64,000 nucleotides of DNA from Phycisphaera sp. (GTDB lineage: Bacteria > Planctomycetota > Phycisphaerae > Phycisphaerales > UBA1924), in contig CP098402.1 in NCBI GenBank assembly GCA_025916675.1, positions 1,731,205-1,795,204 on the forward strand, in the 5' to 3' direction. Below, in pieces: positions 1 to 863 of this stretch. The number at the start of each line of letters is the position of its first letter. Positions within the stretch are counted from its first letter, which is position 1. The position numbers were made by a program, and so were the translations under genes. The notes below the pieces were generated by a model. That model worked only from the letters and a program-made list of their open reading frames with translations, ran no database searches and had not been told where the DNA came from.

Positions 1-633
1 ATCTCGGCCAACCGCATCGCCGACCACCTGCGAGAAGTCAGCGAGAAGGAGGGCGTGCAGGCGGACGATGACCTGTTGGCCGCCGTGGCACGTCTGGGCG
101 CGGGATCAATGCGCGATGCGCTCAGCCTCCTCGATCGGCTGATGGCGGCTGGGGACAAGAAACTCACCCTGGCACGGCTGGAAGAGTTGCTGGGCTTGCC
201 CGATCGTGAATTGATTGGCAAGGTGATCGATGCGATCGCGTCGAGTGATACTCGGCAGGCTCTGGAGGCCGGGGACGAGTTGCTCGGTCTGGGCATCGGA
301 CCCGAACTGGCGCTCGAGACGCTGGCGAATCGGCTCCGGGATCTGATGATTCTCGGTGTGTGTGGCCCGGAAACAACGCTTGTTGAGTTGTCCGATGCCG
401 CCAGGCAGAGCGAGACCCAACGGGCGGGCAACTTCGATGCCCCAGCGCTCTCGCACATGATCGCGCTCTGCGAGACCGCCCAGCGGGTGTGCCGGGAGAG
501 CCCGGCACCACGAGCGATGTTCGATGCGGCGCTGGTGCGGCTGGCGATGGCCGAACGATTCGCCGACCTGACGGCCCTTGCCTCGGGCGGTGGTGCAAGC
601 CGGGTCCCGGAGATGTCGCGGGGAAAAGCCTGA
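1..633 (+). CDS. dnaX: DNA polymerase III gamma-type subunit, 3' part
   Basis: This is the 3' part of the clamp-loader ATPase subunit, open at the window start in frame 1. The visible part contains SMRDALSLLDRL, the conserved sensor-2 region of DnaX, followed by the helical collar domain (about residues 60-190 of the visible protein). Clamp loaders open the sliding clamp and place it on primed DNA. The zero-frame product stops at TGA 631-633, just after the collar, as the short gamma form does in Escherichia coli. The next genes are a small membrane protein and ybaB, and dnaX-ybaB is a widespread neighbourhood. The stop lies four bases after a slippery heptamer, and a proline-rich extension continues in the -1 frame, so two products are likely. 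A sequencing indel is the alternative. Confidence 0.93.
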   Translation: MSANRIADHLREVSEKEGVQADDDLLAAVARLGAGSMRDALSLLDRLMAAGDKKLTLARLEELLGLPDRELIGKVIDAIASSDTRQALEAGDELLGLGIGPELALETLANRLRDLMILGVCGPETTLVELSDAARQSETQRAGNFDAPALSHMIALCETAQRVCRESPAPRAMFDAALVRLAMAERFADLTALASGGGASRVPEMSRGKA

Positions 634-644
634 GGCCGGCGGCC
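609..644 (+). promoter_or_regulatory. candidate programmed -1 frameshift signal in dnaX
   Basis: The heptamer G GGA AAA (621-627) fits X XXY YYZ in the zero reading frame. GGAG at 609-612 lies 8 bases upstream, like the internal Shine-Dalgarno stimulator of E. coli dnaX. GGCC at 634-637 and 641-644 can pair as a short hairpin 6 bases downstream. The zero-frame TGA is at 631-633. All three parts of a bacterial -1 signal are therefore present. Its efficiency cannot be judged from sequence. Confidence 0.65.
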
Positions 645-863
645 GCTCCACCAAGCCCCCCGCTGGCACCCCAACCAACACCGCCCGCAACTCGATCTGC
701 CCCTGCCTCTACCCCTATTGAGGTCGAGCCCAAGCCGCAGCCACGCCCGCAACCCGATCCCGAATCGGTGCCCACGGGCCCGGCCTTGCATGACCATGCC
801 CTTGTTCGCAAGGCCCGGGAGCTGTTTGCGCCCGAGGAATCGCGGGGTCCGGACGGGGTCTAA
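621..863 (+). CDS. dnaX: tau-type C-terminal extension of DnaX in the -1 frame
   Basis: After slipping back one base at 621-627, translation would continue as GKSLRPAAAPPSPP and on for about 78 residues to TAA at 861-863. The extension is a Pro/Ala-rich linker followed by a short helix with HALVRKARELF. It looks like the end of DnaX proteins in other bacteria, where a P-L-V-x-x-x-L-x-L-F segment follows a proline-rich linker. It has no start codon or RBS of its own at a suitable place. It reads best as the long-form tail of DnaX, not as a separate gene. Confidence 0.6.
   Translation, partial: GKSLRPAAAPPSPPLAPQPTPPATRSAPASTPIEVEPKPQPRPQPDPESVPTGPALHDHALVRKARELFAPEESRGPDGV

Follow-up and report, generated by a model that had tools for sequence, protein, structure and literature searches.

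A predicted -1 frameshift signal where the dnaX zero frame ends in Phycisphaera and its family

The dnaX locus at the start of the window

The window, that is, the whole stretch of 64,000 nucleotides of Phycisphaera sp. DNA that was analysed, starts inside dnaX, whose zero frame is closed by a TGA at 631-633. This frame matched TIGR02397 with 373 bits and holds the DnaX core, with DNA_pol3_delta2, DNAX_ATPase_lid and DNA_pol3_gamma3 above the Pfam cut-offs. The gene probably starts at a conserved MAYTAL 504 nt 5' of the window, from which the zero frame would run for 378 amino acids. The features at the locus are as follows.

1-633, + strand: dnaX zero frame, 3' portion, coding for the predicted short, gamma-like form, by TIGR02397 and Pfam domains
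609-612, + strand: Shine-Dalgarno-like GGAG, 8 nt before the heptamer
621-627, + strand: slippery heptamer G_GGA_AAA in the zero frame, G (621), GGA (622-624), AAA (625-627)
621-863, + strand: predicted -1 extension, 80 codons from the heptamer, ending at TAA 861-863
631-633, + strand: zero-frame stop TGA of the predicted short form, beginning 4 bases past the last heptamer base
635-642/660-667, + strand: arms of a predicted hairpin, with inner arms 645-647/654-656, -18.8 kcal/mol
789-839, + strand: HDHALVRKARELFAPEE, conserved tail helix of DnaX read in the -1 frame, by genus and family comparison

A preliminary description of this DNA had claimed a zero-frame G GGA AAA heptamer, a GGAG upstream of it and a stop four bases after it, and all three were found at the positions given above, the homopolymer stretch at the site being G4A4. 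It had also claimed a downstream hairpin; this is indeed predicted, its 5' base being the eighth base after the heptamer, but taken alone it does not fold better than shuffled sequence (z -0.56, with 55 of 200 shuffles folding at least as well), and a score over a shorter stretch gave z -1.39 at the site against z -1.67 for its downstream control stretch. A Pro-rich linker and a tail helix had been described for the -1 frame, and both are present, the linker first and then the tail; a globular domain that most of the family's extensions carry between the two was not found in this genus. By coordinate count the predicted long form has 455 amino acids (377 zero-frame and 78 -1 residues). The window's own -1 extension gave no match in the Pfam or NCBIfam libraries. 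An Rfam match at 779-819 was below threshold (E 0.38) and was taken as chance, not as a real RNA element. Further 3' of dnaX, at 919-1692, lie a small open reading frame with a membrane-like stretch and a second open reading frame, which we take to be YbaB/EbfC-like.

In all four genus members compared (the window and three others) G_GGA_AAA stands one codon ahead of TGA and the -1 extension is open for 71-80 codons, with a homopolymer stretch of G3A4 in the other members versus G4A4 in the window. Since the three others share G_GGA_AAA, TGA and an open -1 frame, a single-base sequencing error, which had been named as a possible source of the layout, is not a reasonable explanation. GGAG was found in three of the four, the member without it being L225 (genome G134). 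A stem lies at the same position 3' of the stop in each of the four members; genome G023 has A-U where the window stem has C-G, and G-C where the window stem has G-U. Structure z-scores for the four were -1.4 (window), -5.1, -1.9 and -3.1, and because a control stretch farther downstream was about as low in the window (z -1.7) and in L225 (z -2.9), such single-locus scores are little proof.

Predicted slip site, stimulators and tail across the family

A search of 100 genomes of the family found dnaX in 96, four genomes giving no match at the threshold used. The family set comprised 95 dnaX loci, of which 94 were readable to the zero-frame stop; L037, whose frame runs past the contig end, was left out, and the set does not include the dnaX of G008 or of G093, both interrupted by contig ends, or the second dnaX place in G031. 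An in-frame X_XXA_AAA no more than 28 nt before the zero-frame stop was present in 87 of the 94 readable loci, and the remaining seven have the tail in the zero frame. Shine-Dalgarno-like motifs and structure were counted in 82 of 85 signal-bearing loci (L022, L063 and L072 were too short), with the later additions L316 and L317 standing outside these counts. The site was A7 in 69 of the 82, G_GGA_AAA in 12 and C_CCA_AAA in one, its last base being A in every case. The zero-frame stop fell 0 or 3 nt past the heptamer in 79 of the 82 genes, and the run was exactly 7 long in 64 of the 65 loci of the A7 group. Other in-frame XXXAAAN heptamers numbered nine among the 31,409 zero-frame codons of these genes, and each of the 82 (chosen, from 92, for having one) carries a heptamer near its stop; judged on these sequences, the configuration of heptamer and stop is far beyond chance. 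All 13 family loci with a non-homopolymeric XXXAAAA have the tail in the -1 frame, and on the quick tree the site changed between A7 and XXXAAAA at least seven times, which together point to tandem tRNA slippage.

The window genome encodes tRNA-Lys UUU and CUU and tRNA-Gly UCC and CCC; an ARAGORN check took in the genes of this genome only, covering 37 of its 46 tRNA matches. Allowing a single mismatch at most, the arm pattern of tRNA-Lys CUU occurs in 89 of the 100 family genomes. Where AAG is read by a CUU tRNA, an AAG site like that of E. coli would be expected to slip poorly, which may be why the last base of the family's sites is always A.

The 16S rRNA of the window genome has the 3' end GGATCACCTCCTTTCT. 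A Shine-Dalgarno-like motif at -16 to -6 was present in 53 of the 82 family loci, compared with 0-5 of 82 in four control windows and with 2 of the 55 A9-A10 loci outside the family (p 2.5e-14, optimistic like the p values below, as related loci are not independent); the strict motif is absent from 29 of the 82. For 3' structure the family gave z -1.69 (n=82) versus -0.12 in the A9-A10 loci (n=55; p 2.8e-10), and was also lower than in the controls (paired p < 1e-11). The helix-opening probability in the family was 0.25 at nt 6 and climbed to 0.68-0.88 over nt 7-16, and A10 loci gave a weaker pairing peak at nt 7-10 (0.48-0.64, 23 loci). As far as predicted folds go, the downstream structure signal is strong at the level of the family, and the window's own hairpin is by itself weak evidence.

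The DnaX tail was called in the -1 frame for all 79 family loci with a complete -1 extension, the window included, by a profile trained on 76 family -1 tails, so that these calls are partly circular. With the heptamer in 87 loci and the tail in -1 in these 79, the alignment of relatives' dnaX that the preliminary description had proposed came out in its favour. The same profile also recognises the end of the zero frame in six family loci with a single frame and in several other planctomycetes; it made no call for 38 of the 156 tree rows, many A10 loci among them. Open length by itself was dropped as a criterion for the tail frame, since +1 frames are open by chance in GC-rich DNA. In Pfam, the extensions of three relatives gave one DnaX_C and one DUF3646 match, both below the curated cut-offs; both families are annotated as tau C-terminal domains. 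In NCBIfam, the extensions of two relatives both matched DnaX C-termini (PRK14965; E 2.8e-7 and 1.8e-7), the match of L079 being overlapped by a TonB model at the Pro-rich linker, to which it may owe something.

A structure model of the L079 extension (pLDDT 83.8, pTM 0.54) was used for a fold search of the PDB, in which E was below 0.001 only for the two chains of one entry, SirA/DnaA domain I; E. coli tau stood fourth and seventh at E ~0.02, with low TM-scores and an rmsd of 11-14. Tau domain V and DnaA domain I have a common fold. With tau matching this poorly, we call the globular tail domain 'domain V-like' only tentatively. A profile of this domain, which lies between linker and helix, finds it in 60 of the 79 family extensions and in none of the four of the window's genus (window 621-863, L076, L078 and L225), and 15 further family extensions lack it or match weakly.

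The zero frame holds the tail in six family loci that have runs of 7-9 A (L007, L020, L041, L056, L091 and L092); L315, with A9 and a tail read from translation, is the seventh. The run is A9 in L056, L092, L091 and L315, and the first three of these sit inside the family tree, as if the slippage type had come back there from the ribosomal one. In L020, where A7 is in heptamer phase, the zero frame encodes tau and the -1 frame closes 20 nt past the run; this locus may be a family member with the E. coli orientation.

Relatives outside the family and the direction of change

The 65 readable loci from the order and class are a non-random sample: every order locus detected outside the family was taken (18), together with the 30 class loci that scored best and further class loci chosen mainly for short zero frames. 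In this sample the run was A10 in 46 loci and A9 in nine, at the junction of DnaX core and linker. All three phases occur among the runs of the outside-family loci, and those tails that were called are in frame 0, -1 or +1. Stops are often close by in other frames in the A9-A10 loci (among L177-L206, L207-L224 and L227-L245). The ribosomal type is also met outside the family: three loci of the order (L211, L215 and L217) carry an A7 or G_GGA_AAA site and have their tail in -1. Short dnaX zero frames with A9-A11 near the stop and with 108-208 open codons in the -1 frame were also seen in the Bacteroidota and Clostridia, in L132 (Halpernia humi), L142 (Chryseobacterium lathyri) and L155 (a Clostridia MAG).

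Trees of 156 DnaX cores placed the family on one side of a branch with support of 93 (quick tree) and 98 (fast tree), and the family's first branch in the fast tree holds A9, A8 and A7 loci with zero-frame tails. Over the 118 rows for which the tail frame was called, it changed 15 times, three of these changes being within the family. The pattern, on trees with no inferred root, suggests that A9-A10 is the older state within the class. As a state of the whole phylum it is weakened by the 29 dnaX loci from other classes, because 20 of these have neither a run of at least 7 nor a heptamer; the other nine were A9-A11 (five), A8 (two), CCCAAAG (one) and unreadable (one).

We lean towards a history in which the slipping machine changed within one class, from RNA polymerase at A9-A10 to the ribosome at A7 and then repeatedly to G_GGA_AAA or C_CCA_AAA. 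The Shine-Dalgarno-like element and helix would have been gained along this path, with tau mostly kept in -1 where the tail had formerly drifted between frames, and the window's genus would later have lost the globular domain and kept the signal. In that genus the frameshift may now add just a linker and a short helix.

Predicted mechanism, rival explanations and known dnaX systems

Very probably, -1 ribosomal frameshifting at G_GGA_AAA makes a tau-like DnaX here, the product itself being a prediction from sequence. On meeting the heptamer, the ribosome would hold Gly and Lys tRNAs in its P and A sites and, aided by the downstream helix and the upstream Shine-Dalgarno-like element, both tRNAs would re-pair one base back, on GGG and AAA. 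Ribosomes that do not slip would meet the stop one codon on and release a 378-amino-acid short (gamma-like) DnaX, and those that slip would read 78 more codons to give a 455-amino-acid long (tau-like) DnaX with the tail helix. The occurrence and efficiency of the slip, the presence of both forms in the clamp loader and the binding partner of the tail are what we infer beyond this. The claim of the preliminary description that the zero-frame stop ends the short form and the -1 frame gives the longer one is supported as a layout, in which the parts known from E. coli would act with the outcome reversed.

Ribosomal slippage predicts an in-phase heptamer whose XXX triplet may vary and stimulators set at a fixed distance, and slippage by RNA polymerase predicts a long homopolymer in any phase with no stimulators. 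By their sequences, the family fits the first set of predictions and the sampled relatives outside it fit the second. Transcriptional slippage of the Thermus type, in which RNA polymerase would add or drop bases and the altered mRNA would yield the long form, is described at A9 in Thermus dnaX (PMC1088944), has been proposed for reversed dnaX with runs of 7-10 A (PMC3711429) and would suit the A9-A10 runs of most sampled relatives outside the family. For the family itself we hold it to be improbable: the G4A4 of the window and G3A4 of the other genus members are not 8-9 identical bases, the runs of the A7 group keep to exactly 7 with a single exception, and this explanation gives no role to the Shine-Dalgarno-like element and the fixed-spacing helix, both of which the family has and the A9-A10 loci hardly have.

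Less probable still is that the gene end has decayed, the -1 tail being the remnant of a frameshift mutation and the short form alone being made. The genus tail is short, lacks the globular domain and is only 50-65% identical between members versus 83-91% for the zero frame, as decay would have it, but the last helix is nearly invariant in all four members while the linker drifts, the heptamer and an open -1 frame are kept in all four, and the layout recurs in 87 of the 94 readable family loci. That ribosomes terminate and then reinitiate in the -1 frame, to give a separate tail peptide, has the least chance of the three, for although a Shine-Dalgarno-like element lies upstream of the stop and 25 of the 82 family loci have a -1 ATG, GTG or TTG within 30 nt of it, there is no such start in the other 57 or in the window, and the in-phase heptamer is left without a role.

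If ribosomal frameshifting at these sites is real, it would be needed for the long subunit of the replicative clamp loader in these bacteria, and annotation as a single open frame would truncate dnaX in most of the family. The clade would then offer natural variants of one site (A7, G_GGA_AAA and C_CCA_AAA, with A9-A10 in relatives), allowing tests of how recoding passes from RNA polymerase to the ribosome with two products kept.

The dnaX of E. coli resembles the window in its heptamer, upstream Shine-Dalgarno element, downstream stem-loop and a stop right after, but there the shift gives gamma and the zero frame is tau, whereas in the window the shift would give the long form. The E. coli heptamer is A_AAA_AAG, in contrast to G_GGA_AAA in the window and to an A-site AAA in 82 of 82 family sites, and E. 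coli is described as having a single lysine tRNA (PMC5009743), unlike the window genome with its UUU and CUU. In the account given in PMC4066793, G_GG.A_AA.A is cited from earlier studies as inefficient in E. coli and is ranked elsewhere among the more efficient heptamers used by IS elements. Thermus thermophilus dnaX likewise gives two DnaX forms from one gene at the junction of core and linker; as described in PMC1088944, it has A9 with tau in the zero frame and it is RNA polymerase that slips, and in many genomes selection against runs becomes visible at a length of nine. Its layout resembles that of the relatives outside the family and not that of the window.

The closest precedent is in Antonov et al. 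2013 (PMC3711429), who list 17 reversed two-ORF dnaX genes from 12 genera, in which, as in the window, the zero frame is the short form and a -1 shift is needed for tau. Nine of the 17 are given with A10 and three with 9, 8 or 7 A, the authors' proposal being transcriptional slippage; Atkins et al. 2016 place the reversed order in 'many fewer bacteria' (PMC5009743). The 17-gene set may overlap with the present loci. In contrast, the sites of the family are A7, G_GGA_AAA or C_CCA_AAA, with a Shine-Dalgarno-like element and helix that point to the ribosome. No report on dnaX recoding in this planctomycete clade was found in the open literature. Reversed dnaX has thus been known since 2013, and what is new here is its spread across a family, the site G_GGA_AAA and the way the family differs from its A10 relatives.
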